Shown in pieces: positions 5,457-61,429 of a DNA stretch of 64,000 bases. The notes below the pieces were generated by a model that did no database searches, had not been told where the DNA came from, and saw only the letters and a list, made by a program, of their open reading frames with translations. The stretch is from a virus: the IMG/VR virus record IMGVR_UViG_3300036864_000108, positions 1 through 64,000 of that record; one strand, given 5' to 3'. The position numbers and the translations under genes were made by a program. Each line of letters starts with the position of its first letter. Position 1 is the first letter of the stretch.

Positions 5457-5540
5457 GTGAACTCCTCGCCTGTCCCGAGCTGTCCCCAAGATCAGGGGAC
5501 AGGTTTTCGGAATCGGACCTGTCCCCGATTTCGGGGACAG
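5341..5540. repeat. cluster of CTGTCCCC/GGGGACAG palindromes
   Basis: Four inverted repeats share CTGTCCCC and its complement. Arms are 5341-5351/5360-5370, 5395-5409/5417-5431 (15 perfect base pairs), 5480-5487/5495-5502 and 5519-5528/5531-5540. They cover the 3' end of the helicase gene and the small ORF after it. Such a cluster could be iterons or an initiator-binding origin, operators, or a set of hairpins. The position next to the replication genes favours an origin, but this is inference. Confidence 0.7.
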
Positions 5541-6915: not shown

Positions 6916-7568
6916 GCAGCCTGCCGGGCGGCGGTCATGTCGAGTGGACTGATCCACTCGTAAATGCGGCCATTCAGTCCGACGCTGGGTGGCAGTACGA
7001 CGTATCCGCCGGCACCCCGGTAGTCGATGCCGGGGAGCACCCCGGATGTGTTGCCGTCCCCCGTGGGCTGGATGTACAGGTGTTGGCCGGGCCGGGGTGT
7101 GATGGCTTTCCCGATTACCGTGGGGATGTCCCCGCGTTCCCGCAGGTCTGCGAGGGACCGGTAGCCTTCGGGTCCGTCCACGTCGATGACGTCGAACATG
7201 TGTCCGGTGGGGGTGCCGATGTTTGATCCGGGGGTGGCCGCCCACCACCCCCGGACGATTTCGAGGTCGGTCGTGGCGTCCTTGAACCCACGGCTTCCCT
7301 TGTACGGCTTCTTCCCGTCGATCTCGTCGTCTCCCCGGTGGTCCGGTTCGGTGCAGGGGCCGGGGGGGTGCAGCGGGAATACCGGGATGCCGTTGCCGGC
7401 GTACCACATGGCTGCGGAGGTGAGCGCCTCCGGTGCGCTGAGCCTGGCCCGCCTCGCCTCGTCTTCGGCGTCCATCCGGGCGGCTAGGCGGCGAACCGCT
7501 TCGTTGTCTCCTTGCCGGATGGCCTCGTTGTAGAGGGTGAAGGCTTCGGGGTCGCTGAGTTGGCTCAT
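6912..7568 (-). CDS. bifunctional primase-polymerase (prim-pol)
   Basis: A 218-residue protein. The N-terminal 50 residues are helical, then the prim-pol core follows: YAGNGIPVFPLHPPGP, KGSRGFKDATTD, WWAATPGSNIGTPTG, then the catalytic DVIDVDG and later GIDYRGAGGYVVLPPS. This order fits the N-terminal domain of phage and plasmid primase-polymerases, which make primers for replication. Here the helicase is a separate gene directly downstream, as if a fused primase-helicase had been split. Confidence 0.88.
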   Translation of the reverse strand: MSQLSDPEAFTLYNEAIRQGDNEAVRRLAARMDAEDEARRARLSAPEALTSAAMWYAGNGIPVFPLHPPGPCTEPDHRGDDEIDGKKPYKGSRGFKDATTDLEIVRGWWAATPGSNIGTPTGHMFDVIDVDGPEGYRSLADLRERGDIPTVIGKAITPRPGQHLYIQPTGDGNTSGVLPGIDYRGAGGYVVLPPSVGLNGRIYEWISPLDMTAARQAA

Positions 7569-7637
7569 GTGGTGCTCCCGTGGGGCGGGTTACGGGTGAG
7601 GTTGCCCCCGCCGCATGACGGCGGGGGCAACGTTTGC

Positions 7638-8015
7638 CTAGAAGGGTGGGGGTGCGTGCTTGGCGAGCCACTCCTGGGCGACTTTGGCGTCCTGCTCGGT
7701 GTACTCGGCGAGCAGCCAGGGCGCGGACTGGCCGGACTTGGCGGTGCCCTTCCCGAGACGGCCGAGGACCATCCCCCCGACCTTCGGGCGGAGCTGCCCC
7801 TGCAACGCCTTCGGGAAGACGAGGGTGTCTTCACGCTTGTCCCCGGCGTTGGGTCCGTCGAGGACAACCACGGTGGATCGGACGGCGTCAGTGACACCGA
7901 ATTGGGTGTTCACGTCCCTCTCAACCGAGTGGACGGTGAACAGGAGGAGTGCCCCGTTGAGGTCTTCCCAAGAGATGCCGGCCGCTGAGGCGGGTGGGCT
8001 GAATGGTGCGGTCAT
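7638..8015 (-). CDS. putative ssDNA-binding-like protein
   Basis: A 125-residue protein with GGAG 7 bases before its ATG. It contains ALLLFTVHSVERDVNTQFG, VRSTVVVLDGPNAGDK, TLVFPKALQGQLRPKVGGMVLGRLG and ends AEEWLAKHAPPPF-like. The beta-rich pattern and its place between the prim-pol and nuclease genes fit a family of actinophage proteins thought to act in replication, possibly as an OB-fold ssDNA binder. The fold is inferred, not shown. A 69-base gap separates it from the primase gene. Confidence 0.65.
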   Translation of the reverse strand: MTAPFSPPASAAGISWEDLNGALLLFTVHSVERDVNTQFGVTDAVRSTVVVLDGPNAGDKREDTLVFPKALQGQLRPKVGGMVLGRLGKGTAKSGQSAPWLLAEYTEQDAKVAQEWLAKHAPPPF

Positions 8016-9475: not shown

Positions 9476-9760
9476 TCATGACGCGCCGTCCGGTAGCGGA
9501 GGGATCACCGTGCCGTCTGGTCGTATCCACCACGGCCGCCCGGAAGGCTCATGTGGCTCGACGTGTCCGGCGAGTTTGGCTGGGGTGTGTTCGGGGCAGC
9601 GCCAGCCGTACAGGTACGGCCTGACGTCCGTGGCGCCGCAGGAGCAGGGTTGGACGCGTTCCCGCATCGGGTAGGCCGCCGGCTCGCCGCACTTGGGGCA
9701 GTGCCACCACGGGCGTCCTTCGACCTTCGGGGGGCAGCCACAGTTACTCAGGGCGGTCAT
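9476..9760 (-). CDS. zinc-finger hypothetical protein
   Basis: A 94-residue protein with many metal ligands: SNCGCPPK, HCPKCGEPA, QPCSCGATD and WRCPEHTP. This suggests two zinc ribbons. It overlaps the upstream DnaA-like gene by ATGA. The C-terminus is proline-rich. The function is unknown; small zinc proteins are unusually frequent in this operon. Confidence 0.7.
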   Translation of the reverse strand: MTALSNCGCPPKVEGRPWWHCPKCGEPAAYPMRERVQPCSCGATDVRPYLYGWRCPEHTPAKLAGHVEPHEPSGRPWWIRPDGTVIPPLPDGAS

Positions 9761-10299
9761 GTCCCGGTCCCGTGTTCGGTGTCGTCGCCGGTGGCCCATA
9801 CGGGTGCGGGTACGCGCAGGTGGCGGGCTGCCCGCGGGGGTGGGGTGGCAATGGCGGGTGTGATTTGTGGTGCTTGGCCGCAGGTGGGGCATGCGTGGCC
9901 GCGGTCGTGCCTGTTCACACACAACGGACAGGCGGCGACATCACTGCGGGTGGCGGGGGCAGCGTCGGGTGGCCGGTGTTTCCGGGCCGGCGTACGGCTG
10001 GCGCCGGGTTGGGTGAGTTGTTGGGTGAGTTCTGTGACGGCTGCGGTGACTTCTTCGTCGCCGACCTTGAGGGCACGCCGTATGACCCGGTCGTAGGTGG
10101 TGACGGTGGAGTGGTCGCGGCCCATGCGGGCACCCAACTGCGGGGCGGACATGTGGGGGGCGTGTTGCCGGGCCAAATGGGCGGCGATGCGGCGGGCCAG
10201 CAGGGCGTCGCGGCTGTGTCCGGCGAGCAGTTCCGCTTCGCCGATCCAAAAGTATTGGGCGACCGCCCGAATGATCCCGTCGACAGAATGCGCGGTCAT
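9757..10299 (-). CDS. DnaA domain IV-like DNA-binding protein
   Basis: A 180-residue protein. The N-terminal 90 residues match the origin-binding domain of DnaA: VDGIIRAVAQYFWI, LLAGHSRDALLARRIAAHLARQ, then LGARMGRDHSTVTTYDRV, where GRDHSTV is close to the DnaA signature. The AAA+ domain is absent. The C-terminus has a zinc knuckle (CPLCVNRHDRGHACPTCG). It may recognise an origin or regulate transcription through DnaA-like boxes. ATGA overlaps occur at both ends. Confidence 0.85.
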   Translation of the reverse strand: MTAHSVDGIIRAVAQYFWIGEAELLAGHSRDALLARRIAAHLARQHAPHMSAPQLGARMGRDHSTVTTYDRVIRRALKVGDEEVTAAVTELTQQLTQPGASRTPARKHRPPDAAPATRSDVAACPLCVNRHDRGHACPTCGQAPQITPAIATPPPRAARHLRVPAPVWATGDDTEHGTGT

Positions 10300-10892
10300 G
10301 GTGTCGCCTCGCATGCTGCCCACAGTCCGCGGTGGGCTTGTTGTGCGAGGCGTTCAGCTTCGGTGTAGGCGACCCGGTTCGGGTGGTTGGGGACGACACG
10401 TTTGCCTGCCCGGGTTTCGCGGTACTGCCGGGCGTATCCCATGCGGATGGCGCGTTGCCCGTAGTCCCCGTCGCCGTCTCTGACATAGGCGAGGGTGCGG
10501 CCGTACCGGTCGAGGCGCCGCGGTCCGTAGGTGAGGGTCACCTGTTCGTTGGCTGCGAGCTGGCGAGCTGCGTAGGCGGACGCTTCTTTCCCGTAGCACT
10601 GCGGGTGGGTCTTGTACTTGCCGGCGGACTCGGGGGTGTCGATTCCGATGAGGCGGGTGATGACGGTGAGGGTGCCTTGCCAGACGATGATGGTGTCGCC
10701 GTCGATGGTACGGTCGACAGTCCATGGCCTGTCTGTGGGTGTGATTGTTGGTTGGGTCGGGGTTACTGTGACCACGGGCGTGGGGTCGGGTCCGGGGAGG
10801 ATGGGGAGGATTCCGTTGGCGACGCCGACGCCGATGAGAAAGGCGGCGGTGGCGACGGCGGTCGCGGACACGGCGATGCGGCGGGTGTTCAT
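10296..10892 (-). CDS. secreted or membrane-anchored thermonuclease (SNase)
   Basis: A 198-residue protein with an N-terminal hydrophobic segment (VATAAFLIGVGVANGIL) acting as signal or anchor, a Pro/Thr linker, then a staphylococcal-nuclease-like fold. Key residues are visible: DGDT (64-67), R80 and D85 in RLIGIDTPE, and DRYGR (128-132) with the second arginine. It should cleave DNA outside the membrane or in the wall. In phages such enzymes may degrade host or competing DNA. The gene overlaps both neighbours by ATGA. Confidence 0.88.
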   Translation of the reverse strand: MNTRRIAVSATAVATAAFLIGVGVANGILPILPGPDPTPVVTVTPTQPTITPTDRPWTVDRTIDGDTIIVWQGTLTVITRLIGIDTPESAGKYKTHPQCYGKEASAYAARQLAANEQVTLTYGPRRLDRYGRTLAYVRDGDGDYGQRAIRMGYARQYRETRAGKRVVPNHPNRVAYTEAERLAQQAHRGLWAACEATP

Positions 10893-12990: not shown

Positions 12991-13595
12991 GCGGCACCTC
13001 CGGTGGTCGGGTTCCCGTATCCGGCGGCGGTGAGCAGCGCGCACAACTGCGCCAAATGCAGGCGGACTGGGGCGTCATGCCAGGGCAGCGCGTCGCCGTG
13101 CAAGCCGAGCAGGTCGGAGATCCACACGATGGCCCACCAGCGCCCGCAGTTGGCGGGGCCGAATCCTTTGCGTTGGACGACGAGGATGCCGATGCGGGCG
13201 TCGACGTTGTCGCGGATTTCGTCGGTTCGTTCAAGCCATTTGCGGACCAACTCGTCGGACGCCATTCTCGCCGCGTCACCCCCTTTTATTGACCATGCCA
13301 GTCCGGGTGTGCTGGTTATGTCACCTGGGTCGGCTTGGCCGCGGAGGCGACGGCGTTCCGCTAGGGGCCAGCCGTGGGTTTGCAGGTACCGGACGACAGC
13401 CGTCTCCGTTTTCGTGCCGATCTCCCCGGACTTGTTGCGGCGCCGGGTGGCGGCCCCCTCCCCCGGGGGGAAAGCGGGGGAGGGGGCCTGGTCGGCGGCC
13501 ACGGGGGGGTGATGGCTCGCCGACTTCGAACCCGCGGCGGCCGGCGACACCGTGGTCTGCCGGCGGCTGCGGGGCTTAGGGGAGATGGTGGTCAT
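12987..13595 (-). CDS. PD-(D/E)XK-like nuclease or resolvase-like protein
   Basis: A 202-residue protein. After a disordered 60 residues, the core reads GEIGTKTETAVVRYLQTHGWP, AERRRLRGQADPGDI, PGLAWSIKGG, then IGILVVQRKGFGPANCGRWWAI. The Glu, Asp (GDI) and Lys (KGG) are placed as in actinophage Holliday-junction resolvase-type proteins, but the usual acidic residue two before Lys is Ser here (S-I-K). It may be inactive or use another residue. It lies next to the methylase gene. Confidence 0.7.
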   Translation of the reverse strand: MTTISPKPRSRRQTTVSPAAAGSKSASHHPPVAADQAPSPAFPPGEGAATRRRNKSGEIGTKTETAVVRYLQTHGWPLAERRRLRGQADPGDITSTPGLAWSIKGGDAARMASDELVRKWLERTDEIRDNVDARIGILVVQRKGFGPANCGRWWAIVWISDLLGLHGDALPWHDAPVRLHLAQLCALLTAAGYGNPTTGGAA

Positions 13596-15193
13596 GTGGC
13601 ACCGCCGAAAATGTCGGGTTGGATCGGCTTGGTGATCCGCTGCCGGATCATGGCCAGGTAGTCGGGGCAGCCGTGCCCGGCGCACTGCCCGCACGGTTCC
13701 CGCTCGATCAGGATGGCGCGCATCCCTTCGATGACGGCGGCCTCACCAACGGGACCGGACCCAGCGAACAGGTCCAGCACGGTCCCGCCGGGCGGGGTTA
13801 CCAGGCGAACCAGCCACCGCATCAGGTCCAGCGGTTTCACGGTTGGGTGGGCTTCCCCGGTGCCGTCGGCGCGTTGGACTTTGGGGCGTTCGTGCGCCGG
13901 GGCCTTTGGCTCATAGCGGAAGACGGGGTAGAAGCGCGAGGCGCCGCCGCAGGTTGCCTCGTACACGCCCTCTCGCGGCCCCTCGTATCTCCAACCCTCA
14001 CTGTTCGCCGCGGTGATCCGGGACCGATCTAGGCGTCCGCTGGTCAGCACGCCGCTCTGCCGGTCGAGTTCGTCGGCAGCATCCTCGCCGAGCACCAGGT
14101 TCGACGGCCAGCGGCCGTTCGGCTTGTATGTGCTAATGATGTCGCCGGGCTTCGCGCCGCCGATCCGGAGCGGGGGGCTGGATTGTTGCCGTTGTAAGGC
14201 TGAAAGGTCGACGTCGCTGCCGTGAGGGATACGGCAGGCGTCGATGTTCAGCGCCCCCGTGCCGTGTGTGAGCACGTTGTGCGCGACCGTGCCAGCAAGG
14301 GGTTTACGGGCGACCACGATCGGCTCCCAGGCCGGTTTTAGTGCCGTGCCCCAACCGTTCCAGCGACGGGCGTCATCGGTGGCCGGGGCGGTCAGGTCGT
14401 AGGCCCCGTCACTCGGCCCGGCGATCTGAACCATAGACGGGCGGCGGACCCGGTATCCCTGACCAGTGATTTGCCGCTCGTACGCTGCTTCCTCGTCATC
14501 GGAGACGTTGAGGGCCGCCTTCGCTAGCAGCCAGTTCGCGCGGCTTGGCGTGTGTCCGCCTTCCTCCCAGTCCCAGACGGTCTTCGCCGCATCAGCGAAG
14601 CCACACGCCTGCCCGAGTCGTTCACGGGTCCAGCCCCGCTGTTCGCGAAAGTGGCTGACCTTCGCCCGTACGAACTCGCCATGCTTGGCCCGGTCGATCG
14701 CTTTCCCCACGTCCAGCGATTTGGGAAACCCGGACCCATATGTCCACATGAGTCCTGGCGCGTCCCGGCCGGTCAAGTCGGCGACCGAGTCGCGGATCTC
14801 GAACCCGGCGTCCTCGATGCCACAGGCCAAGCGGTGCCAAGTGCGGGTCCCCCCGAACGCGAGCATGTACCCGCCCGGTTTGAGGACGCGCAGGCATTCG
14901 CGTGCCCACTGCTCGCACCAGGCTTGGAACGACTTCCCCGCGACGTACTCCGGCGAAGTGCGGGACGCGCGGCCAAACGCATTATCGCGACCCGCATCGG
15001 CCGTGTTGCGTGAGCGCCGGAACCCGTCCCCCGTCTTCCAGGGCGCGTCCCAGTCCTTGCCCATGAACTCCAGGCCGTACGGCGGATCCGTGACGACCGA
15101 GTCGATGGAGGCGTCGGGCATTTCGGCGACCACGGCCAGGCAATCGCCGTGATACAGAGTGACCGCGTCGTCCTGGTAGTAGGGCGCGGTCAT
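13592..15193 (-). CDS. DNA N4/N6-methyltransferase with inserted HTH
   Basis: A 533-residue protein of the beta-class amino-methylase order. DPPYG is near the N-terminus (36-40), LKPGG at about 105-109, and the SAM-binding LDLFAGSGPVGEA near the C-terminus (about 474-485). Residues about 174-235 form an XRE-like segment (FREQRGWTRERLGQACGFADAAKTVWDWEEG) placed between catalytic blocks, which is unusual. The enzyme probably modifies phage DNA against restriction. HPTVKPLDLMRWLV marks the typical C-terminal block. ATGA overlaps at both ends. Confidence 0.9.
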   Translation of the reverse strand: MTAPYYQDDAVTLYHGDCLAVVAEMPDASIDSVVTDPPYGLEFMGKDWDAPWKTGDGFRRSRNTADAGRDNAFGRASRTSPEYVAGKSFQAWCEQWARECLRVLKPGGYMLAFGGTRTWHRLACGIEDAGFEIRDSVADLTGRDAPGLMWTYGSGFPKSLDVGKAIDRAKHGEFVRAKVSHFREQRGWTRERLGQACGFADAAKTVWDWEEGGHTPSRANWLLAKAALNVSDDEEAAYERQITGQGYRVRRPSMVQIAGPSDGAYDLTAPATDDARRWNGWGTALKPAWEPIVVARKPLAGTVAHNVLTHGTGALNIDACRIPHGSDVDLSALQRQQSSPPLRIGGAKPGDIISTYKPNGRWPSNLVLGEDAADELDRQSGVLTSGRLDRSRITAANSEGWRYEGPREGVYEATCGGASRFYPVFRYEPKAPAHERPKVQRADGTGEAHPTVKPLDLMRWLVRLVTPPGGTVLDLFAGSGPVGEAAVIEGMRAILIEREPCGQCAGHGCPDYLAMIRQRITKPIQPDIFGGAT

Positions 15194-18705: not shown

Positions 18706-19527
18706 TTAGAGCCGAATCCGCTTCGCCGAGTCGGCAGGTAGCCCACGGTTGTACTGCTCCGCTACGACCTCGACGGCAGCCCGCACCGTTGAGACGCCGC
18801 GGGTGACGCTCAGCTCGACCTTCCGCTGCGCAGCCATAGCAGTGATCTGCTGCGCGGGAAGACCGCGGAGCTTGTCGTACAGCCGGTCCTCATCGACCTC
18901 GGACTTGCTGACGAAAACCTTGCTGAGCGCCTTCAGGAGCACGCTCTCCGGCCGCTCCTGATTGCCGTAGGCGCGCGCGTAGAATGTGAAGACGCGGGAC
19001 AGGTGCTCCGGACCGCTGATCTCCACGTACTTGCGGCGTTCCGCGTCGCGCATGATGGCGACACCTGCGGTGCGGTCCCGGAACGTGGAGTCTTCGGCGC
19101 GGTCGGCGACGAAGATGAACCCAGCGGACTGGGCGGCCATCTGAACATCGAGAGTGGCCTGGTCACCGGACGTCGCAAGGTTGCGGTCCCGATCGACTGC
19201 CGCCACACCAGCTCGGTCGTTGCGGCCCATGAACAGCCGCGCCTCGTCAGCCTTCGACAATCCCGCAAAGATCTCGCAGGTCACGGTGGAGACACCGTTG
19301 CCGTTAGCCCTCTTGGTGGCTTCGAGCCGATGCTGGCCGTCCAAGATGTACAGCCCGTCCTGACGCTCGGAGACGAGCAGTTCGCCGAGCAGGACGGGGG
19401 CGAAGTTGCCGATCAGCTTCCGCAGCCTCGCCGGGACGATCGCCCGCTGAACGGCGAGGTCCACCTTGACGTCGCTGACCGCGACATCAACCCCGTACTT
19501 GTGTTCCGTGTACTCGATGGGCTCCAT
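18706..19527 (-). CDS. ParB/DUF6551-like protein
   Basis: A 273-residue protein with a ParB/sulfiredoxin-like N-terminal domain: VDLAVQRAIVPARLRKLIGNF, LYILDGQHRLEATKRA (the DGQHR motif at about 65-70), then CEIFAGLSKADEARLFMGRND. The C-terminal half is helical. Such DUF6551-type proteins are common beside replication genes in actinophages. They lack an obvious parS partner; the DGxHR fold may bind nucleotide. The ATG at 19527 is preferred because AGAGGAG is well spaced from it and not from the ATG at 19533. Confidence 0.78.
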   Translation of the reverse strand: MEPIEYTEHKYGVDVAVSDVKVDLAVQRAIVPARLRKLIGNFAPVLLGELLVSERQDGLYILDGQHRLEATKRANGNGVSTVTCEIFAGLSKADEARLFMGRNDRAGVAAVDRDRNLATSGDQATLDVQMAAQSAGFIFVADRAEDSTFRDRTAGVAIMRDAERRKYVEISGPEHLSRVFTFYARAYGNQERPESVLLKALSKVFVSKSEVDEDRLYDKLRGLPAQQITAMAAQRKVELSVTRGVSTVRAAVEVVAEQYNRGLPADSAKRIRL

Positions 19528-19541
19528 GCCCATCTCCTCTC

Positions 19542-20450
19542 TTATTGCTGCTCCCTGACGGGAGATCCCCGCACTATGCGGGAAGCTTTCTCGGCGTCTT
19601 CAAGCTCTTTGAGCTTGGCGCCGAATTCTGCGACGAGGCCCCTCAGCTTTTTGAGGACAGATGGGAGCCGGAAGTCTGGGGCGATCAGTTTCTCGGCGCG
19701 GATAAGGTCCGCGTCCATGCCGGGGTCTTGCAGCGCCCGCGTGAGGGCGAGGATGCATTCGCTCAGAGCCGCTTTGACGCGGTCTTGTGTCGCCAGGACT
19801 CGGGCGGGTGGCCTGGACACTTCGCGTACGGAGCCGCCGATGGCCTCATGCGAAGCGCGCCATACGGCTTCTTCGGCCTTCTGTTCGGCGCGTTTCGCGG
19901 CCTGCTTCGGCGCCGCCTTCGCGCGTTGCTTGGCGAGTTCCTCTTGTCGCTTGATTTCTGGATCTGGCCGCAGCATGGGGGGCTTCGTCTTGGGCTTCCT
20001 AGCCTGATACGTCCTGCCATCCTCGCCAGTCCTGACGGAGTGTTGGGGAATTTCCCCAACACTCTCCATCTGGATTCGGACACGGCCGACGGTCTTATGA
20101 TCACAGCCCACTAACCGGCCCACATGTCCGTCGGTGGCATCCGGCCGACGTAGCAGGTAACGCCTGATCGTTGCGCGCTTCTGGTCATTGGTTTGATGAC
20201 GGCCGATGAGATTGAGCGCGAGGCTGGCGTCGAGCTTTTCGGCCTCGCTGAGTCCCGCAGGTAGTTGATGGATCGGGTATTCCGCCCCCGACTCTTCCGC
20301 GATCTGCTTGCGATGGTGTCCGTCGATCACCTCGCCGAACTCGTCCACGATCACCGGCTGCAACACGCCGCGTTCGGCGATGTCCTCGCGGAGATCCGCA
20401 TACTGCTGCTCGGTCAGCGGATCGAGGAGTTGGTACTTTGGCGCGTTCAT
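19542..20450 (-). CDS. ParB-like nuclease-domain protein
   Basis: A 302-residue protein. The N-terminal domain is ParB-like: YQLLDPLTEQQYADLREDIAERGVLQPVIVDEFGEVIDGHHRKQIAEE, with the conserved G-E-V-I-D-G-H-H-R. A KorB/ParB-like helix-turn-helix follows (HVGRLVGCDHKTVGRVR). Then come a long basic helix (EELAKQRAKAAPKQAAKRAEQKAEEA) and a helical end. It probably binds specific DNA, for regulation or partition. With the DUF6551 gene it makes a tandem pair; a ParA gene is not seen in the window. Confidence 0.82.
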   Translation of the reverse strand: MNAPKYQLLDPLTEQQYADLREDIAERGVLQPVIVDEFGEVIDGHHRKQIAEESGAEYPIHQLPAGLSEAEKLDASLALNLIGRHQTNDQKRATIRRYLLRRPDATDGHVGRLVGCDHKTVGRVRIQMESVGEIPQHSVRTGEDGRTYQARKPKTKPPMLRPDPEIKRQEELAKQRAKAAPKQAAKRAEQKAEEAVWRASHEAIGGSVREVSRPPARVLATQDRVKAALSECILALTRALQDPGMDADLIRAEKLIAPDFRLPSVLKKLRGLVAEFGAKLKELEDAEKASRIVRGSPVREQQ

Positions 20451-23467: not shown

Positions 23468-24883
23468 CTAACGCCAGTCGACCTGGAGTCGGTGCGGGTT
23501 GAACCTGCGCGGCCCCTCGTGTGGTCGCACCCTGATCGCGGCGAACAGGCCGCGGGCAGCGATCCGCTTCTGCTCCGCCGTGAACCGGTCCCACCGCGCG
23601 GCGATGTCGTCACCTTCAAGGTTGCGGAGCAGCCTGGGCGGGTGGGCCAACTTCCGGCGCGCCACCGCCAACCTGCCCTCGATCGGGCGGCGGGCCTCGA
23701 TCCACTCGGCGAACCCAATCAGCCGCTCCCCGTGCGCCCGGGCCAGGTCGCGGAGCTGTCGCTCGTCAGCGGCCATCTCCGCGCGCACAGCCTCGATGGC
23801 CGGGTCGGGGGTGGTGTCGCGGAGCCGCTGCCACGCCGCCGGGTCCGACGCCCACGCGACGATCAACCGACCCACATGCTCATGCACCGGCTCAGCGTTG
23901 ATCGCGATCCGCCCGCACCCGCCGAGATGCTTGGCGCATACGTAGCGTCGCTTCCCTTCGCGGGCCTGACCGGCGGAGAAGCCTTTCAGGGCGTGCCGGC
24001 ACAGCCCGCAGCGGAGCGTCCCGGACAGCCAGTAGACGAGCCCGATGCGGTCGCTGCTCGCACGGTCGGCGAGGACCGCGCACAGCTCCTCCCACACGTC
24101 CCGGTCCAGGATGGCGGGCCACACAGCCTGCCCGATGATCCGCTTCTGGTGGGTGCGCAGCCCGGCGACCCTCGGCTTCGTCACGGCCGCCTTCAGCGCC
24201 CGGTCGGTCCACGGGCCGCCCTGCACCGTGGGGACTCCACGCTGGTTGAGATCCTTGACGATCCGGTAGAGGGGGTCACCGGCGAGGATCTTCGTGGCGG
24301 ACTCAAGGATCACCTGCGCCTCACTGTCGTCGACGGTGACCCGGTCGTTCTTGTATCCGTAGGGGCGGATGCCGCCGCCGCCGTACTTCCCTTCGGCGGC
24401 GAGATCCTCGTGTTTGCGTCGCACCCGCCTCGCCGTGTCACGGCTGGACTTGTTGTTCATGGCGGTGACGACCCTGGCCATCGCCACGCCCGCGTCGGTC
24501 GACAGATCGAGGCTGCCAGTGACCGCACGGTTGGGGATCAAATGCTGCTCCACCACGTCGATCAGGTCCTCAAGGTCCCGCATGTCGCGGACGCACCGGT
24601 CAATGTCGTAGACGATCAGACCGTCGCGGTGACCGGAGTCAAGGTCGTCCAGTAGCCGCCGGAACTCGGGGCGGACCACACGTTTCGCCTTGCGACCGTC
24701 CGGGAGGACGATTTGGCGGCGCCGGTAGGCGGACACGTTCTGCTCGACGTACACCTCGGCGATGCCCCAGCCGATGGCGGCGCCGAGTGACCGGCCGTCT
24801 TTCTCCTGCCGGTCCACACCCGCCAGGTCGTCGTCGCGGGCGTCGGACATGCGGACGAGCAGTGCGGCGCGTCGCGGGGTCAC
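23468..24883 (-). CDS. int: large serine integrase
   Basis: A 471-residue site-specific recombinase. The resolvase domain starts ALLVRMSDARDDD, with R11 and S13 as the likely catalytic pair, and continues with GLIVYDIDRCVRDMRDLEDLID and SRDTARRVRRKHE. The recombinase domain follows (GIRPYGYKNDRV, IVKDLNQRGVPTVQGGPWT, RVAGLRTHQ), then a zinc ribbon (LRCGLCRHAL...RRYVCAKHLGGCGRI) and a helical C-terminus. It should integrate the element at a host attB and, with a directionality factor, excise it. It is divergent from the transfer cassette. Confidence 0.95.
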   Translation of the reverse strand: MTPRRAALLVRMSDARDDDLAGVDRQEKDGRSLGAAIGWGIAEVYVEQNVSAYRRRQIVLPDGRKAKRVVRPEFRRLLDDLDSGHRDGLIVYDIDRCVRDMRDLEDLIDVVEQHLIPNRAVTGSLDLSTDAGVAMARVVTAMNNKSSRDTARRVRRKHEDLAAEGKYGGGGIRPYGYKNDRVTVDDSEAQVILESATKILAGDPLYRIVKDLNQRGVPTVQGGPWTDRALKAAVTKPRVAGLRTHQKRIIGQAVWPAILDRDVWEELCAVLADRASSDRIGLVYWLSGTLRCGLCRHALKGFSAGQAREGKRRYVCAKHLGGCGRIAINAEPVHEHVGRLIVAWASDPAAWQRLRDTTPDPAIEAVRAEMAADERQLRDLARAHGERLIGFAEWIEARRPIEGRLAVARRKLAHPPRLLRNLEGDDIAARWDRFTAEQKRIAARGLFAAIRVRPHEGPRRFNPHRLQVDWR

Positions 24884-24931
24884 GCTCCGCTATGGTAGTC
24901 GTAACGTAGCGTCGGGCCGCGTACTCCACTG

Positions 24932-25750
24932 ATGGCATACACAGGGTTGGCATATATGAGTCCAAGACGGACAACGGGACTGGTCGCCGCCGCCCGTGTC
25001 GTCATCACGACGGTCGCCGCGGTCGCCGCGATCATCGCCTCGTTTGTGTTCCTCCGCGGTCTGGCCGCCAGCACGGGTTGGCCTGGGTGGACTGGGTTGC
25101 TGTTACCGATGTCGGTGGATGCGCTCGCCGCGTCAGCGTGGCTCACCTACTGGATCAGCGAGCCGGGGCAGCGTCGGTTCGCTGGGTGGGTGGGTGCGGC
25201 CGCCACCACCGCGAGCCTGGCTGGTAACGCCTTGTCGCATCTGCTTGTGACCGGGCAAGTCCACGCCGGATGGTTCCTGGTCGCCGTTGTGGGTTCGGTC
25301 CCAGCAGTGTCGCTGGCGCTGGTCGTGAAGATGGCGGTACCGGATCAGCCTGGCCCGGTATCACTGCGAGTGGAGGGTAGTACCAAACTCGCTACAAACT
25401 CGGCGCCGCGGGTTGGGCCCGGCGGTTCCGGGGCCGCAGCGGATGGACCGGATCGCACTGTGGGGGTCGACGGGTCCGGGACCGCCGGTACCAGCAACAG
25501 TGACAGCCCGGACCTGGTGCCGGTCAAGACCCCCGGTCAGCCGGTACCAGTACCCGTCGAGGTCCCCCCGCCTCCGAGTGCTGGTACCGGCGCCAGTGAG
25601 GCGGCGCTGTTGAACCGGTTCCTGGCCTCCGGGCGGGTACCGACGGTCGCGAACGTGCAGGACGTGTGCGAGGTGTCCCGCCGTCAGGCCCTCAAGTTGG
25701 CCCCCCAGTTCAAGACCGTCATCGGTTCCGGTAACGGTCACGGCGAGTAG
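24932..25750 (+). CDS. DUF2637-like membrane protein with C-terminal HTH-like region
   Basis: A 272-residue protein. The first 140 residues hold about four transmembrane segments (VVITTVAAVAAIIASFVFL, WTGLLLPMSVDALAASAWLTYW, WFLVAVVGSVPAVSLALVV). A long Gly/Ser/Pro linker follows, then RVPTVANVQDVCEVSRRQALKL, a helix-turn-helix-like end. DUF2637 proteins occur in Streptomyces plasmids and integrative elements near traB. It is probably part of the intercellular transfer or spread apparatus. An ATG at 24956 is an alternative start. Confidence 0.78.
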   Translation: MAYTGLAYMSPRRTTGLVAAARVVITTVAAVAAIIASFVFLRGLAASTGWPGWTGLLLPMSVDALAASAWLTYWISEPGQRRFAGWVGAAATTASLAGNALSHLLVTGQVHAGWFLVAVVGSVPAVSLALVVKMAVPDQPGPVSLRVEGSTKLATNSAPRVGPGGSGAAADGPDRTVGVDGSGTAGTSNSDSPDLVPVKTPGQPVPVPVEVPPPPSAGTGASEAALLNRFLASGRVPTVANVQDVCEVSRRQALKLAPQFKTVIGSGNGHGE

Positions 25751-25764
25751 GGAGGGCGGACGAC

Positions 25765-25953
25765 ATGCCGTTCGGGTTCCGCAAATCGTGGCGGTTCGGG
25801 TCCCGCAACCTGCACCTGCGGTTGAACGCGTCCAGGAGCGGCGCGTCCTGGACGCTGAAGGTGGGGCCGTGGTCGTGGAACACAAGGCAGCGTCGGCACC
25901 GGGTTGATCTGCCGGGTCCCGCGTACTGGCAGTCACGGGGGCGTCGGCGGTGA
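25765..25953 (+). CDS. DUF4236-like small protein
   Basis: A 62-residue protein: MPFGFRKSWRFGSRNLHLRLNASRSGASWTLKVGPWSWNTRQRRHRVDLPGPAYWQSR. The pattern RKSxRxG...LRLNxSxSGxSWxxxxGP matches DUF4236, short beta-rich proteins of unknown function. GGGAGGG lies 9 bases before the ATG. Its stop overlaps the next GTG. Confidence 0.82.
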   Translation: MPFGFRKSWRFGSRNLHLRLNASRSGASWTLKVGPWSWNTRQRRHRVDLPGPAYWQSRGRRR

Positions 25954-26426
25954 CCGTGCTCACGTCGCGGCGTCACCGGCTGCCCAAGGGTGTGACCGTC
26001 GATGACCTGGACTTGCGTTGGCTGATCCCGCGTCACCGTGACCAGTTGGCAGCGGGGAAATTGCGGGTCCCGGATCAGGCGAACCACTTCCGGGACGGAC
26101 ACCCGGCCACGTTGGTCAGCGTCCCGGACGGGTTCGGTTGCCCCGTCGCGTGGATCGACGTGGAGATCGCCGAGCTGATCTGGCGGCTGAACCGGGTTGG
26201 TGTCGACACTTTGGAGTGCTGCCAGGGAGGCGGGTACGACGTTTGGGGTGGTCGCGGTTCGGCGTACATCGCGTTCCCCGGTCCCACCCAGTGCAACCGC
26301 TTCCTCGCCCTCGCCGAGGATGCGCTGCGCGGTGAGGAAGTCGAACGCAGCTATGGCCGGTCCCGTGTCGTCCGGTTCCCACACTCGCAGGTGCGCCGGA
26401 TCACCCGGACAGTGAGGAACGCCTAG
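25950..26426 (+). CDS. conserved hypothetical protein of the transfer cassette
   Basis: A 158-residue protein: LDLRWLIPRHRDQLAAGK, FGCPVAWIDVEIAELIWRLNRVGVDTLECCQGGG, SAYIAFPGPTQCNRFLALAED. The TLECCQGG segment and later aromatic strand look conserved, perhaps with metal or thiol chemistry, but no family is recognised. It overlaps the DUF4236 gene by GTGA and ends 3 bases before the translocase gene. Confidence 0.68.
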   Translation: MTVLTSRRHRLPKGVTVDDLDLRWLIPRHRDQLAAGKLRVPDQANHFRDGHPATLVSVPDGFGCPVAWIDVEIAELIWRLNRVGVDTLECCQGGGYDVWGGRGSAYIAFPGPTQCNRFLALAEDALRGEEVERSYGRSRVVRFPHSQVRRITRTVRNA

Positions 26427-26429
26427 CCG

Positions 26430-28412
26430 ATGGCCCGCCGCCTGGGTACCACGGTGCGCCGCGCCTCCACCGACGCGCGCACCGGCAGACATCCGCGCCC
26501 CTCACCGGAGGTGGGCCCGTTCGTCGCCCTCGCCGTGCTGGCGGTCCCCGCCGGGTTTGGGCTGCACTACGCGTGGGGCCGGACCCTGCCTGACGCGGCG
26601 GTCGCGGCGTCCGCGGTCAGCTTGGCCACCGTCGGCTTGTTCACGTTGACGGCGGTGCATGCGAGGCCCCGCCCGACGGTGCAACGTTGGCAGGCCGCCG
26701 GGTCAGTTGGGGTGTCGGGGGCTGTGTTGCTGCTGCTGCTGATCGTCGGCTGGTCGTGGTCCGCCCTGTCCGTCGCCGGGTTCGCGGTGGCGGTGAACAC
26801 GGCCGCGTGGCTGCTGTTCCGGTCCAACGTGGTCCGCGGCGACGGTACCGACGAGCAGGAGGCGGGGGAGGACCGCACCGCCGTGGCGCTCGGTATCGAG
26901 GGGGCGAAGGCGCGGAAGGTCCACGAGGACGACGACAAGGTCGTCACGAAGATTCGGCCCGCGCTCGGCCAGTCACACAAGGACGTGCAGAAGATCGCGG
27001 AACCGTTGGCGACAGCCACACATGCGCCGGTCGGCGGGGTCCGGGTCCCCGTCAACCCGGCCGACGCGGGGGACATCACCGTCGTCCGCATGAAACGCGA
27101 CGTGCTCCACGACACCATCCTGTGGCCCGGCCCATCCAACCTTGGCGGCACGTTCGCCGATCCGCTGGAGGTGGGGCGGCGGGAGGATGGCACGGTCGCC
27201 CGCCTATGGTTCCCCGGCCGGCACACACGTTCCGGCACCCACCTGCTGATCATGGGCATGTCCGGGTCGGGTAAAGGCGAGTCGTTCCGGGTCACCGCCG
27301 CTGAGATCATGACCCGCCGGGATGTCCTTTTTTGGCTGATCGACTATGCGAAACCGTGGCAGACCGCCCGCGGCATCGTCGGCGGGCTCGACCTGTTCGC
27401 CACCAGCAAAGCGGACGCCGGCCAGGTGATCGCGCATCTGCGGAAGTTCATCCCGTACCGGTCCCGGAAGCTGGGGCAGGCCGGGTGGGACCAGTGGGAC
27501 GAGGACTGCCCCGTCCCCGCGATCGTCGTGTGGATCGAGGAGGCCGCGGAACTGTTCGCCGCCGACGAGCAGTGGGTGGAGCATCTGCCGCGGCTGGCTG
27601 AGCAGTGCCGTTCGGTGGGCGTGTTCCTCGTCTACTCGATTCAGCGGGCGCACTCCGCGAACATGGACACGAACGTCCGCGCCCAGCTCGGCGCCGGCTG
27701 GTGTTTCGGCGTCGATGGTGGCCGGGACGCCGAGTTCTGCCTGTCCCCCGTCACCCTCGCGGCTGGCGCGGACCCGTCGTGGGGTAACAAGCGGGTCGGG
27801 TACGCCTACCTTGAGGCCCCGGGTATTGACGAGCAGGACTGGTCGCAGAAGATGCGCGGCTACCTCGCCAAACATGAGCAGCTAGTGGAGACGGTCGCGT
27901 CGGCTACTGACATCCGCTGCCCCGGTCTGCCCCCCGACGAGGCGGCGTTCTGGGGTGACATCTACACACGGTTGCACACCATCCAGTCCAATCCATCGGA
28001 GGCCCTGGTGCCCATCGAAGACCTCGCTGACGAGGACGGCTACGACGACACGATCGTCCCGGTCGACCCGGAGTTGAAAGACGAAATCGACCCGTCGGAG
28101 CCGATCCTCCCGTATGACCCGGCGCGGGACGGCCCGGACATCGAGTTCCCGGAGCTCGTGTTCGACCCGAAGGAGTTGACGGCGGAGGAGGTGCGGGACG
28201 AGTTCGACAAGATGCTGCGGAAGTTGGCCGAGGAGGGGATCACCACAGTCAACACGGTACTGCTGATGGAGCGGTGGCCGTACCGGAAACGCCCGTGGAT
28301 TTCCAAGCAGATGAAGCGGCTGGAGAAGGCCGGTCAGGTGGAGCGGTACCAGGAACGCCCGTTCGCGGAGGCTGAGTGGCGGCTGGTAGCCCTAGTGAGC
28401 GCCGCGCAGTGA
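26430..28412 (+). CDS. FtsK/SpoIIIE-type DNA translocase (TraB-like)
   Basis: A 660-residue protein. Residues 30-130 hold about four transmembrane segments; a charged linker follows. The motor has Walker A GMSGSGKG (276-283), Walker B IVVWIEEA (365-372) and VFLVYSIQRAHSANMDTNVRAQLG, a sensor-like block. The C-terminal region (about 585-655) contains a winged helix (MERWPYRKRPWISKQMKRLEKAGQVERY). This is the layout of TraB proteins of Streptomyces plasmids, which pump double-stranded DNA between cells after binding repeats at clt. A repeat array lies directly downstream. Confidence 0.88.
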   Translation: MARRLGTTVRRASTDARTGRHPRPSPEVGPFVALAVLAVPAGFGLHYAWGRTLPDAAVAASAVSLATVGLFTLTAVHARPRPTVQRWQAAGSVGVSGAVLLLLLIVGWSWSALSVAGFAVAVNTAAWLLFRSNVVRGDGTDEQEAGEDRTAVALGIEGAKARKVHEDDDKVVTKIRPALGQSHKDVQKIAEPLATATHAPVGGVRVPVNPADAGDITVVRMKRDVLHDTILWPGPSNLGGTFADPLEVGRREDGTVARLWFPGRHTRSGTHLLIMGMSGSGKGESFRVTAAEIMTRRDVLFWLIDYAKPWQTARGIVGGLDLFATSKADAGQVIAHLRKFIPYRSRKLGQAGWDQWDEDCPVPAIVVWIEEAAELFAADEQWVEHLPRLAEQCRSVGVFLVYSIQRAHSANMDTNVRAQLGAGWCFGVDGGRDAEFCLSPVTLAAGADPSWGNKRVGYAYLEAPGIDEQDWSQKMRGYLAKHEQLVETVASATDIRCPGLPPDEAAFWGDIYTRLHTIQSNPSEALVPIEDLADEDGYDDTIVPVDPELKDEIDPSEPILPYDPARDGPDIEFPELVFDPKELTAEEVRDEFDKMLRKLAEEGITTVNTVLLMERWPYRKRPWISKQMKRLEKAGQVERYQERPFAEAEWRLVALVSAAQ

Positions 28413-28454
28413 GGGGCTGGGGAGGTTTCTACGTCCCCGTAGGGGACGGGGGGC

Positions 28455-28542
28455 GGAACACGGGGCGGAACACGGTGCGGAATACGAGGGGAACGCGGGC
28501 CGGAACGCGACGGAACACGGTAAGGAACACGGACGGAACACG
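28455..28542 (+). repeat. eight phased GGAACACG repeats (clt-like array)
   Basis: Eight copies of an octamer GGAAYRCG begin at 28455, 28467, 28479, 28490, 28502, 28512, 28524 and 28535, so the steps are 12, 12, 11, 12, 10, 12 and 11. Five copies are GGAACACG; the others are GGAATACG and GGAACGCG (twice). Near-helical spacing puts all copies on one face of the DNA. The array sits 40 bases after the translocase stop. In pSVH1, TraB binds 8-bp repeats at clt beside traB; this looks equivalent. Confidence 0.8.
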
Positions 28543-28557
28543 ACGACAGGAGAGGTC

Positions 28558-28905
28558 ATGACCGACGTTTCGATCTTCGACACCGAATTGAAGCGCACCT
28601 CGGACTACCTGGAGTACTTGGAGAAGCTGCGGCATCACGGGAAGGACTTGGCGGATGCGATCAACACGACGGCGGGGCTGCTGGAGTTGAAGCTGCGGGC
28701 GCATGTCCGTGCGAACTCGGGCAGGTACGGCGGCGCGAACGCGTACAACACGGCCCGGCTGGCGATGAAGCCGGTGAAGCATGCGGGCGGGTCGGCGCAG
28801 GAGATCGCGAATTCGGCGCGCGCCGCGTTGATCATCTATCAGCGTCGGATCGTGACCCCGTACATGGAGGAGCCGGTCAAGTCACCATTCGACGTCGAAC
28901 ACTGA
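28558..28905 (+). CDS. hypothetical protein after the transfer repeats
   Basis: A 115-residue helical protein: DTELKRTSDYLEYLEKLRHHGKDLADAINTTAGLLELKLRAHVRANSG, YNTARLAMKPVKHAGG, AQEIANSARAALIIYQRRIVTPYME. ACAGGAGAGG precedes the ATG. Its conserved place downstream of the translocase and repeats suggests a transfer or spread role, but I cannot name the family. Confidence 0.7.
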   Translation: MTDVSIFDTELKRTSDYLEYLEKLRHHGKDLADAINTTAGLLELKLRAHVRANSGRYGGANAYNTARLAMKPVKHAGGSAQEIANSARAALIIYQRRIVTPYMEEPVKSPFDVEH

Positions 28906-28949
28906 CGTAGCCGTCTGTGTCTGGCGCGTGTCATGCTGGAGACTGAACT

Positions 28950-29255
28950 GTGAGCGAGGACAAGACCATGGACGTGCAAGCCGAGTGGGACGGCCAGCCC
29001 TTCGCCGACCTGCGCACCACTGGCCTGTTGTGGCTGATCAACGCCAGCGTGTTCCACCCCCGCGGCTACGCCTTGGCGTTGCATTCCGACGAATCCGGGG
29101 ACTGCGTCGGCTGGTCACTGCTAGGCGACGGGTCCGAACCGTGGACGTTCCCGGATGACTGCGACGCCGAGTTCACTGCCGCGTCCCGCCTATTCGCAGG
29201 CCCTGAACCGGGGACCGCTGCGACGTCGAAGCCCGCGGGTTCCTCGCCGAGTTGA
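28950..29255 (+). CDS. conserved hypothetical protein
   Basis: A 101-residue protein: GLLWLINASVFHPRGYALALHSDESGDCVGWSLLGDGSEPWTFPDDCDAEF. The sequence WLINxxVFHPRGYALALH...LLGDGSEPW.F recurs in actinophages and Streptomyces mobile elements, with no known function. The GTG at 28950 has GGAGA upstream; an ATG six codons later is possible. Confidence 0.72.
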   Translation: MSEDKTMDVQAEWDGQPFADLRTTGLLWLINASVFHPRGYALALHSDESGDCVGWSLLGDGSEPWTFPDDCDAEFTAASRLFAGPEPGTAATSKPAGSSPS

Positions 29256-29279
29256 CCAACCGCAGGTGGGAGGTTCGCT

Positions 29280-29630
29280 GTGCGTGAGTTGGAGCGGGAG
29301 CACGCCCGCCTGTCGGCTGCCCGGGCGTTGGGGGAACGGCATCCGCATTGGTATCTGCATCGCGGCATGGTGTGGTGGGTCGTGTTCAGCGCGGCGGTGA
29401 TCGGCGCTGTGTTGTGGGCGGGACGTGAGGGCGCCGCGGTGCTGGCCCGGGTGGACGCCCCGTCGATGCCCCGCCTGTCGCTGCCGGACTTGCCGGGTGT
29501 GCCGTGGCTGACCGTGGCCTGGGTAGTCGCGGTGCTTGCGGTGGTCGGGCTGGCGGTGTGGTTGTGGCACCGCCGGTCCTACGGGTTGCCGTGGCGGTAC
29601 CGGCTGCGACGCCTGTTCCGGCGGTACTGA
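29280..29630 (+). CDS. two-pass membrane protein
   Basis: A 116-residue protein with transmembrane segments WWVVFSAAVIGAVLWA and WLTVAWVVAVLAVVGLAVWLW, separated by a Pro-rich linker, and a very basic C-terminus (YRLRRLFRRY). GGGAGG precedes the GTG. It is the last plus-strand gene before the terminator. It could be a spread (Spd)-like membrane protein of the transfer cassette. Confidence 0.68.
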   Translation: MRELEREHARLSAARALGERHPHWYLHRGMVWWVVFSAAVIGAVLWAGREGAAVLARVDAPSMPRLSLPDLPGVPWLTVAWVVAVLAVVGLAVWLWHRRSYGLPWRYRLRRLFRRY

Positions 29631-29642
29631 CCCCCAGACACG

Positions 29643-29679
29643 AAAAACGCCGCCGCTCCCCCCGAGGGGAGCGGCGGCG
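29643..29679 (-). terminator. strong intrinsic terminator
   Basis: A perfect 14-bp stem: CGCCGCCGCTCCCC (29648-29661) and its complement (29666-29679) with a 4-base loop. On the minus strand the stem is followed by TTTTT (29643-29647). It ends the long structural and lysis transcript and, as a hairpin, may also stop the converging transfer-cassette transcript. Confidence 0.85.
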
Positions 29680-29709
29680 TAATGACCCGCCAGAAGGGCG
29701 TGGCCGAGT

Positions 29710-30003
29710 CTAGCGGGGCGGCGGCCCAGGGTCGTCGATGACCCCACCCAAGTCGCGGACGCCTTTTTCGAACCGGCCGATCCGGTGCGGCGGCAGCGTC
29801 GGCGGCGCGTTGCTTTTCGTCAGGTACCCGGCTGCCCATGCCACCGCACCGACCAGGGCGGCGGCCAGCGCCGGGTCCAGTGTGTAGCCGAGCGCGTCGG
29901 CGACGAGGACGAGGATGGTGGCGGCGACACCGGTGATCCCGGTGGCGGCCATTTTGCGGGTGGGCGCGGCCGACGGCTGACTCACCTTCCGGTGGGTGCT
30001 CAC
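29710..30003 (-). CDS. putative holin
   Basis: A protein of about 97 residues with two transmembrane segments (ITGVAATILVLVADALGY and AALAAALVGAVAWAAGYL) joined by a short turn, and a polar C-terminus. It is the last gene of the structural and lysis transcript, downstream of two lysin genes, which fits a class II holin. The second GTG (30003) overlaps the upstream TGA; the first GTG (30006) is equally possible. Confidence 0.68.
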   Translation of the reverse strand: MSTHRKVSQPSAAPTRKMAATGITGVAATILVLVADALGYTLDPALAAALVGAVAWAAGYLTKSNAPPTLPPHRIGRFEKGVRDLGGVIDDPGPPPR

Positions 30004-44924: not shown

Positions 44925-45974
44925 CTACTCCTTTGTCTCTAGCAGCCGAAGCAGATGCTTGGCGTGCGCTGTAAACGTGCGGTCGGCGACCGCTTCGCGT
45001 GCTTGCTGCGCGGCCTTGTGCCGCTCTTCCGGCTTGTCGAGCCAGTACCGGAGCAGCCACGTCGCCTCCTCGGGTGAGGAGAACACGGGCAGCATGTGAA
45101 GCAGGTGATCGCCCTCCGGGCGGGGGTCGCGGAGGAAAAACAGCCCGCAGGCCGCCATCTCGATCTCCCGCGGTGAGATCGACCACCCGCCGACAACTTG
45201 ATCATCATCGGCTTCGCGGCGATACAGGTTGATCCCAACCTTCGCGGACTGGTAGATCCGCACCGTTTCCGCGTTGTCGACGCACTTCTCAGGGTCGCCG
45301 GAGGCCAAGTACTGCCACAGCGGCGAGTTCTCGGTGACCCCGTTCCAGTTGCCGGCGAGCAGCACATCGAGACCTTTGAGGTCCATGTGCTCGAAGAACC
45401 AGCGGCGGGAGCCGAACCCGGTGCCGACGAACGCCAGGTCGGCGGCGAGTTTCGGGTCAGGCTCGCCGGGCTTGTGCAAACCTGGCCGGTAGGCGTGGGG
45501 GCAGTACCAGGTTGGCGCGACGGCGCGGAACTTCTCGATGTGCGTCGGGTCGTTGATCAGGTTCGCATCGGCGTGCGTGGCGAGCGCCAGTTCCCGCTCC
45601 AGCTCGTACGGCTGCTCCGTGTGGACGACGACGATGCGGGTGCCTTGCCGACGGGCATGGTCGAGCATGTCGTGGGGGACGAAGAACCCGGAGATGATGA
45701 GCAGGTAGTCGGGGCGGATCTTCCACAGTGCGGCGGCGAGCCCGTTCAACGCCAGCTCGTATACCCCGTCAGCGTCGAGGGCCTTCCGGAGTTTCAGGCG
45801 CCCGTCGGGTAGTTCCTCGCCGATGTCGATCAGCGCATGGTCGTAGAAGGCAAGCCTGTCATCCAAATTGAACCGGTAGACGTCCTGACCGAGTTCGGTG
45901 AGGGCTTCGCACCAGCCTTCGTAGACGTCGAACACGGACCATGCGGGGCCAGGTGCGGCGACGAGCCATCTCAC
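44925..45974 (-). CDS. glycosyltransferase (CgeB-like)
   Basis: A 349-residue GT-B-type protein: MRWLVAAPGPAWSVFDVYEGW, KIRPDYLLIISGFFVP, TRIVVVHTEQPYELE, DLAFVGTGFGSRRWFFEHM, and the C-terminal donor-binding block KVGINLYRREADDD...SPREIEMAACGLFFLRDPRPEGD. This fits the CgeB/DUF3880 glycosyltransferases. In a phage structural operon it probably glycosylates virion proteins. GTG start overlaps the upstream stop. Confidence 0.85.
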   Translation of the reverse strand: MRWLVAAPGPAWSVFDVYEGWCEALTELGQDVYRFNLDDRLAFYDHALIDIGEELPDGRLKLRKALDADGVYELALNGLAAALWKIRPDYLLIISGFFVPHDMLDHARRQGTRIVVVHTEQPYELERELALATHADANLINDPTHIEKFRAVAPTWYCPHAYRPGLHKPGEPDPKLAADLAFVGTGFGSRRWFFEHMDLKGLDVLLAGNWNGVTENSPLWQYLASGDPEKCVDNAETVRIYQSAKVGINLYRREADDDQVVGGWSISPREIEMAACGLFFLRDPRPEGDHLLHMLPVFSSPEEATWLLRYWLDKPEERHKAAQQAREAVADRTFTAHAKHLLRLLETKE

Positions 45975-49246: not shown

Positions 49247-50641
49247 TTAGCCTCCTCCGACTCCTGCCATGGCCCGTTCCCGGGCCTCCACGCGGCCCAC
49301 GTCGCGCGCGCGGGTACCGACGGTGGTGGGGGTGCGGTCCCTGGCGGTGACCCCTGCTGGTGCCCGTGTGCGGGCGTTGACGCCGGCCACAGCCCGGTCC
49401 CTGGCCTGTACTTGCCCGCGGGTGGTCGGTGGGGTTGATGTCGCGGCTGCGGTGAGGCTGCCCGCACCGGTCAGCGACGCGGTCACCCGTTGCACGACGG
49501 CGGCGGTGAGTGTTCCCGCGCCCGTGAGGGTTGTCGTGGCGGGGGTCAGGACAACGGGTGCGGTTAGGGTGCCGGCGCCGGTGAGGGTGGCGGTGGCGAA
49601 CCGGATGACCGTCGCGGATGCGGTGAGTGTTCCGCTGCCGGTCAGTGTCCCGGTGCCGCTGATGACTCCGGCTGCGGTGACCGTGCCCGCACCGGTGAGG
49701 GTGGCTGGGGCGCGTTGCGTGACCGGAGCTGTGAGGGTGCCGGCACCGACCAGTGCGGCGGTGCCGTTGACGACGCCGACGCTGCTGGCTGTCAGGGTGC
49801 CCGCGCCGGTCAGTGTCGCGGTGGCCTGCTGGGTTTGGGTGGCGGTCGCGGTGACCGTGCCCGCGCCAGCCAAGGTGGCTGTTACGGCCTGCGTGACCGT
49901 CGCCGTGAGACTGCCGGCGCCGGCGAGGGTGGCGGTTCCTTGGACTATCCCGCCGCTTGTCGCGGCCAGTGTGCCCGCACCTGTGAGGGTGGCGGTTGCG
50001 GCCTGGGTGACAGTCGCGGTGAGGGTGCCGGCCCCGATGAGCGCGGCGGTTGCGGCTTGAGTGGCGTTGGCAGTCAGCGTCCCCGCGCCGACCAGAGTGG
50101 CCCCGGCGACCTGCGTTGCTGTCGCCGTGACAGTGCCGGCGCCAGTGAGGGTGGCAGTGGGACCGGATGCTTGCGTGGTGGCTGTGACCGTGGACCCGGC
50201 GGACAGTACCCTGCCTGCCGCTGTGACCGTGCCGGCACCGGTGAGGGTGGCGGTGCCGTTGACGGCGCCGCTGACCTCTGACCCGGACGCGGTCAGGGTT
50301 CCCGCGCCCGTCAGGGTGGCGACCGCACGTTGGGTAACTGTGGCGGTGACCGTCCCCGCGGCGGTGAGGGTAGCGACCGCCCGCTGGGTGACAGTTGCGG
50401 TGACCGTACCCGCGCCGGTCAGACTCGCGGGCGCCTGCTGGGCAGCAGTAGCAGTCAGCGTCCCCGCACCCGTCAGGGTGGCGGGCGCCCGCTGGGTTTG
50501 AGTGGCAGTAGCGGTCAGGGTCCCCGCGCCGGTAAGGGTGGCAGTGCCCTGGACGACACCCCCGCCGGCTGGGGCCAGCGGGTAGACGATGCGGCGTGGG
50601 CGGCGAACTACTGGCCGGCGGAAAACGGCCGCGCGGCCCAC
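49247..50641 (-). CDS. virion repeat protein, 19 TLTGAGT units
   Basis: A 464-residue protein. After RRPRRIVYPL it has about 19 tandem units of the type ATLTGAGTLTATVTQ, mostly 17-20 residues, each probably two beta strands, so the whole may form a solenoid or hairpin rod. The C-terminal 65 residues repeat an R-D/E-R motif (ARDRAVAGVNARTRA). It is related to the protein at 54488 (10 units). A surface fibre or decoration role is likely from its place among structural genes. Confidence 0.75.
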   Translation of the reverse strand: MGRAAVFRRPVVRRPRRIVYPLAPAGGGVVQGTATLTGAGTLTATATQTQRAPATLTGAGTLTATAAQQAPASLTGAGTVTATVTQRAVATLTAAGTVTATVTQRAVATLTGAGTLTASGSEVSGAVNGTATLTGAGTVTAAGRVLSAGSTVTATTQASGPTATLTGAGTVTATATQVAGATLVGAGTLTANATQAATAALIGAGTLTATVTQAATATLTGAGTLAATSGGIVQGTATLAGAGSLTATVTQAVTATLAGAGTVTATATQTQQATATLTGAGTLTASSVGVVNGTAALVGAGTLTAPVTQRAPATLTGAGTVTAAGVISGTGTLTGSGTLTASATVIRFATATLTGAGTLTAPVVLTPATTTLTGAGTLTAAVVQRVTASLTGAGSLTAAATSTPPTTRGQVQARDRAVAGVNARTRAPAGVTARDRTPTTVGTRARDVGRVEARERAMAGVGGG

Positions 50642-61353: not shown

Positions 61354-61429
61354 AAATGTCTCCTGTGGGGCATGGGGAGGGCGGGGCAACCGGTCAGCTA
61401 TGCGGCCACCCCACCCAGAACGAGGGGGA

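Follow-up and report, generated by a model that had tools for sequence, protein, structure and literature searches.

Why should a virus carry a regular array of short direct repeats immediately after a gene for a DNA translocase, and what reads these repeats? The window, meaning the whole stretch of DNA that was analysed, comprises 64,000 nucleotides (positions 1 to 64,000 of the IMG/VR record IMGVR_UViG_3300036864_000108, which is 69,754 bases long), and belongs to an element that is a tailed temperate phage or prophage, known here from its genes alone. At positions 28455-28542 it has eight copies of the octamer GGAAYRCG, directly 3' of a gene for a homologue of TraB, the translocase of Streptomyces conjugative plasmids. 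The locus is laid out like a plasmid transfer locus but has a different octamer. The array is very probably the recognition sequence (clt) of the phage's own TraB, as the sequence-only reading had proposed, and this is well supported by the 3' arrays of the TraB family, by co-variation of octamer and winged helix and by the similarity to published clt loci. The features of the locus are as follows.

26430..28412, + strand: TraB homologue of 660 amino acids, FtsK-type double-stranded DNA translocase (tblastn, full-length alignments, model)
26511..26840, + strand: predicted membrane anchor of TraB, four N-terminal helices (residues 28-137; model)
26871..27971, + strand: FtsK-like motor, residues 148-514, with Walker A GMSGSGKG and Walker B IEE (model)
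28182..28385, + strand: C-terminal winged helix, residues 585-652 (model)
28290-28328, + strand: recognition helix, residues 621-633 (model)
28432..28448, + strand: inverted repeat CGTCCCC-GTA-GGGGACG with 7-base arms, located 3' of the traB stop and 5' of the array (sequence and fold)
28455..28542, + strand: eight-copy GGAAYRCG array, predicted to be the recognition sequences of TraB (clt; from sequence, family-wide 3' arrays and co-variation)

The octamer array

Exact matches to GGAAYRCG begin on the + strand at 28455, 28467, 28479, 28490, 28502, 28512, 28524 and 28535, with steps of 12, 12, 11, 12, 10, 12 and 11 bases (mean 11.4), which confirms the eight copies at steps of 10-12 that had been described. 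The array lies 42 bases beyond the end of the traB stop at 28412, in agreement with the earlier estimate of about 40, and 15 bases separate its end from the ATG of a gene encoding 115 amino acids. Across the window there are 29 matches to GGAAYRCG compared with 15.5 expected, and there is no second cluster. When chains of octamers were sought with at most one mismatch and steps of 8-14, the array was the sole 8-copy chain of the window and the runner-up had 5 copies. The intergenic region of 145 bases is G-rich (65 G and 11 T), and in 2000 dinucleotide shuffles of it the longest chain had 5 copies.

The description of the array as helically phased is loose. A mean step of 11.4 does not correspond to a full turn of the helix, and the eight sites therefore do not lie on one face of B-DNA, drifting by approximately 30 degrees per site; strict 10.5-base phasing is not supported. 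The mean step in the arrays of relatives is also 11.4. With the exception of the small hairpin, folding of the intergenic region as RNA or single-stranded DNA was no better than that of shuffles, and an Rfam search gave no match. Inverted repeats are likewise present in published clt loci (PMC3583192).

TraB and the arrays of its family

The product of the neighbouring gene is, from its alignments, a full-length homologue of Streptomyces plasmid TraB. TraB-like hits on actinobacterial plasmids (tblastn, 26-38% identity) include pRL1, pSN22, pJV1 and pWTY27, several of them annotated as TraB, and the alignment spans the membrane part, the motor and the C-terminal domain (33.6% identity to the TraB of pRL1, 30.1% to pSN22 and 30.3% to pJV1). 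The AlphaFold2 model of the phage protein had a mean predicted local distance difference test score (pLDDT) of 81.6. Its motor matched the folds of FtsK (Z 27.3 to 6t8b) and of the conjugative coupling protein TcpA (Z 25). The C-terminal unit follows the order helix-strand-helix-helix-strand-strand and, when modelled separately, gave winged-helix DNA-binding proteins as fold matches; the FtsK gamma domain was not among the best 50 fold matches, which is uninformative in either direction. Homology and structure prediction thus bear out the membrane-anchored FtsK-type translocase with a C-terminal winged helix that had been read from the translation. By analogy with the plasmid proteins, it is plausible that the phage TraB forms a hexamer and a pore and transfers double-stranded DNA.

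TraB homologues were gathered from plasmids, genomes and virus records, and the 250 bases 3' of traB were examined in 85 non-redundant loci. Chains of at least 4 octamers were found in 53/85 homologues compared with 12/783 of the remaining genes in these loci (Fisher P=2e-50), and chains of at least 5 in 30/85 traB loci compared with 4/783. Similar enrichment was seen relative to tiled windows of the same loci (54/93 versus 47/5137 for at least 4 octamers). Judged by these counts, a phased octamer array directly 3' of traB is a trait of the family. The octamers themselves vary, as relatives carry CTGACACC, CCGCACAC, GTGCCACG, TGTCACG, GTCCAAACC, GTTGCACC, CGGAACAGC and others; CGGAACAGC, from an S. 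rimosus prophage, is among those nearest to GGAACACG. A CAC[C/G]-like right half was common to many TraB octamers (L002-L108) and the left half was variable, a pattern suggesting that recognition has a shared component and one that confers specificity.

The nearest homologue found, L109, is 34% identical and comes from a terminase-bearing virus record; its traB is followed by four phased CTTGACAC/CTGACAC octamers. The sequence-only reading had taken absence of the array beside close homologues as a point that would count against it. As to the kind of array, the comparison is favourable, as L109 has one in the 3' position, but GGAAYRCG itself does not recur there because the octamer of L109 differs.

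Motif distance was correlated with winged-helix distance (Mantel r=0.56), and the correlation was 0.27 when corrected for motor distance (P=5e-4), compared with 0.11 between motif and motor distance when corrected for the winged helix. Such tracking is expected if the winged helix of the neighbouring TraB reads each array, and by this measure the octamers co-vary with the TraB winged helix family-wide. In the proposed comparison of arrays and recognition helices across relatives, the idea that helix 3 on its own determines the octamer is contradicted by L066, which has the SKQMKRL core of the phage protein and the octamer CCGCACACC. With ~85 traB genes and their 3' regions in hand, most with an octamer array, the DNA-recognition code of TraB is directly testable, winged-helix residue against octamer base.

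Recognition, transfer and other explanations

The closest precedents are pWTY27 and pJV1, in which clt lies directly 3' of the translocase gene. The clt of pWTY27, from Streptomyces sp. Y27, spans 16 bases within the tra gene and 159 bases beyond it, contains four TGACACC, is required for transfer and is bound by its translocase in electrophoretic mobility shift and footprint assays (PMC3583192). This plasmid shares with the phage a TraB-type translocase with GKG in Walker A, an upstream DUF2637 gene and short direct repeats immediately 3' of the translocase gene; it differs in having another octamer and a clt which starts inside the tra gene, and it is without the tailed-phage gene set. A gene annotated as a phage major capsid protein lies close to traB-clt in pWTY27 (L071, 5510-6970). 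In pJV1 and pSN22 the TraB proteins are ~30% identical to that of the phage and CCGCACA[C/G][C/G] repeats lie directly 3' of traB, but these are small plasmids (~11 kb) without phage genes and with another octamer. The pJV1 clt has nine such repeats (PMC3583192), and its direct repeats are called essential in the title of Franco 2003, as cited in PMC9513070. The precedent originally named, pSVH1, is apt for repeat recognition, as its FtsK-like TraB reads 8-bp TraB recognition sequence (TRS) repeats via helix 3 of the winged helix (PMC4170104, PMC3583192, PMC12857230), but it is a plasmid and not the closest match. Hexameric TraB, 8-base repeats and double-stranded transfer have been described (PMC4170104, PMC12857230).

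Two classes of mobile element are also similar. Actinomycete integrative and conjugative elements (AICEs; PMC3218068) are integrating elements with an integrase and one Tra protein of the FtsK/SpoIIIE type. They are defined by integrase, replication and Tra modules and by the lack of virion genes, whereas the phage record has head, packaging, tail and lysis genes and so falls outside the class. Phage-plasmids join phage and plasmid functions, and some P1-derived plasmids have acquired mobilisation genes (PMC10879196); here, in contrast, transfer and phage genes share one element with a serine integrase.

The combination recurs on other phages and prophages. A terminase was present on 13/19 TraB virus records, the present one included (one or both of two terminase profiles), and Streptomyces prophages with TraB were found in S. 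cupreus, Streptomyces sp. NBC_01214, NRRL F-2664 and S. rimosus; in that of S. cupreus, traB is followed downstream by terminase, portal and protease genes. In the tree the present TraB pairs with that of L109 with full support, and phage TraBs are scattered, some within plasmid clades. The module has therefore probably been exchanged repeatedly, although the count of exchanges is not firm as unmarked loci may also be prophages. Among 50,697 phage records searched with tblastn, no isolated phage had a TraB with all parts; the L007 TraB gave one weak match, to the motor only, and the L010 TraB gave motor-domain matches only, nearly all to Bacillus phages. The parts of the TraB/clt system are known, but their recurrent joint presence on tailed phages appears to be unreported in the open-access literature searched.

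If the array is the clt of the phage TraB, its eight sites would be bound by the winged helix at the C-terminus of the protein whose gene immediately precedes it. The membrane-anchored TraB would load on the array and form a hexameric ring, as in Streptomyces plasmids, and this ring could then pump the excised phage genome, double-stranded, into a neighbouring cell or hyphal compartment. Whether the phage uses TraB and the array for cell-to-cell transfer is evenly balanced, the argument for it being one of analogy. A wider proposal is made a little more tentatively: temperate tailed phages of filamentous actinobacteria may have two routes of spread, virions and TraB/clt conjugation of double-stranded DNA, with a TraB-clt cassette swapped among plasmids, integrative elements and phages and with octamer and winged helix changing together. 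If true, some tailed phages would move by mating besides particles, which would blur the border between phages and conjugative elements in actinobacteria, and prophages would gain passage where receptors are missing.

Several observations weigh against these readings. L066 has the same recognition-helix core, SKQMKRL, as the phage TraB but a different octamer. The longest chain was of 3 copies in 29/85 homologues and of 2 copies in three. Homologues of more than ~35% identity were not found, and single-protein scans of viral and genome contigs gave no close relatives of the present TraB. In addition, the residue after K in Walker A is G rather than S or T (GSGKG instead of GSGK[ST]), as in 10/76 homologues. 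This was rejected as decisive evidence of a dead motor, as the TraB of pWTY27 also has GKG and pWTY27 transfers (PMC3583192). Finally, TraB transfer has been demonstrated in mycelial actinomycetes, to which the host of the present virus may or may not belong.

The alternative which survives best accepts that the array binds TraB, but takes TraB to be inherited cargo, or to act inside the infected mycelium (septal DNA spread or host interference), with no mating transfer to new hosts. This is a real possibility, if somewhat less than an even one: TraB occurs on many kinds of element and is scattered in the tree, phage cargo tends to sit near the integrase as the present module does, and Spd proteins of plasmids work in intramycelial transfer (PMC12857230). 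Against it, TraB and array have been retained together, with motor residues intact save GKG, in several prophage and virus records.

It is improbable that the array is instead where a repressor of the transfer operon binds, as an operator or autoregulatory site. It does lie between two same-strand genes, and tra operons are under repressor control of the KorA/KorB type (PMC4170104), but eight octamers in one orientation within 88 bases exceed the usual need of an operator, and most relatives have an array after traB, with octamers that co-vary with the TraB winged helix. Furthermore, no promoter-like site was found in 24700-29800 by a scan covering one promoter type only.

Slightly less credible still is a replication iteron or phage packaging (pac) site. 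Iterons are short direct repeats (those of pWTY27 are GTGGGAAC; PMC3583192) and traB lies 3-9 kb from the terminase in some prophages, but here the replication genes (5449-7671 and 9757-10323) and the terminase (68117-69451 of the record) are 18-40 kb distant, and arrays follow traB in plasmids (pSN22, pRL1) and stay with it where the terminase is elsewhere. A chance, low-complexity or coding repeat, for which only the base composition of the region speaks, can be dismissed, as 8 copies arose in 0/2000 shuffles, a mixture of 10-, 11- and 12-base steps cannot keep to one reading frame and other octamers are similarly arranged beside the traB of relatives.

The phage and its gene neighbourhood

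The record encodes a terminase large subunit, portal, head maturation protease, major capsid protein, head-tail adaptor, tape measure protein, endolysin and serine integrase. With structural, packaging, lysis and integrase genes on one record, the element is therefore a tailed temperate phage or prophage, as had been suggested from the window. The terminase is nearest to those of Gordonia, Rhodococcus and Arthrobacter phages (31-36%), and TraB is nearest to proteins of Streptomyces, Pseudonocardiaceae and Streptosporangiales. No DNA similarity to phage records and no tRNA genes were found. The transfer module occupies 24932-29630 on the + strand, between the integrase and a lysis gene, and has the following neighbours and further members.

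23468..24883, - strand: large serine integrase, divergent from the transfer module
24932..25750, + strand: DUF2637 protein (Pfam), first gene of the module, upstream of traB
25950..26426, + strand: open reading frame of 158 amino acids immediately upstream of traB, without family match
28558..28905, + strand: open reading frame of 115 amino acids 3' of the array, GGAGAGG preceding its ATG, without family match
29280..29630, + strand: open reading frame of 116 amino acids with two hydrophobic stretches, without family match; possible spread protein, by eye only
29647..29680, no strand assigned: hairpin resembling a terminator, which ends the + strand module and faces convergent phage genes

In pWTY27, too, a DUF2637 gene precedes the tra genes, and several relatives have matches 1-3 kb 5' of traB; the DUF2637 protein is possibly a Spd-like spread protein.

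Elsewhere in the window, the gene at 9757-10323 (- strand) encodes a small protein with a DnaA C-terminal DNA-binding domain (PF08299, E 1.3e-11), and an adjacent pair of ParB-like proteins (18706-19533 and 19542-20450, - strand) is encoded on this serine-integrase-bearing element. An N6/N4 DNA methylase (13592-15193, - strand) has its catalytic halves split by ~280 extra residues with a helix-turn-helix match. Within the structural-gene region there are long tandem repeats of 54, 108 and 174 bases (49674-50513 and 54987-55225), and glycosyltransferase-like proteins are encoded among the structural genes (44925-45974 and 61914-63725, - strand). Large proteins carrying a calcineurin-like phosphoesterase domain and a CBM96 carbohydrate-binding module are encoded near the structural genes as well (56594-59236 and 59728-61455, - strand).
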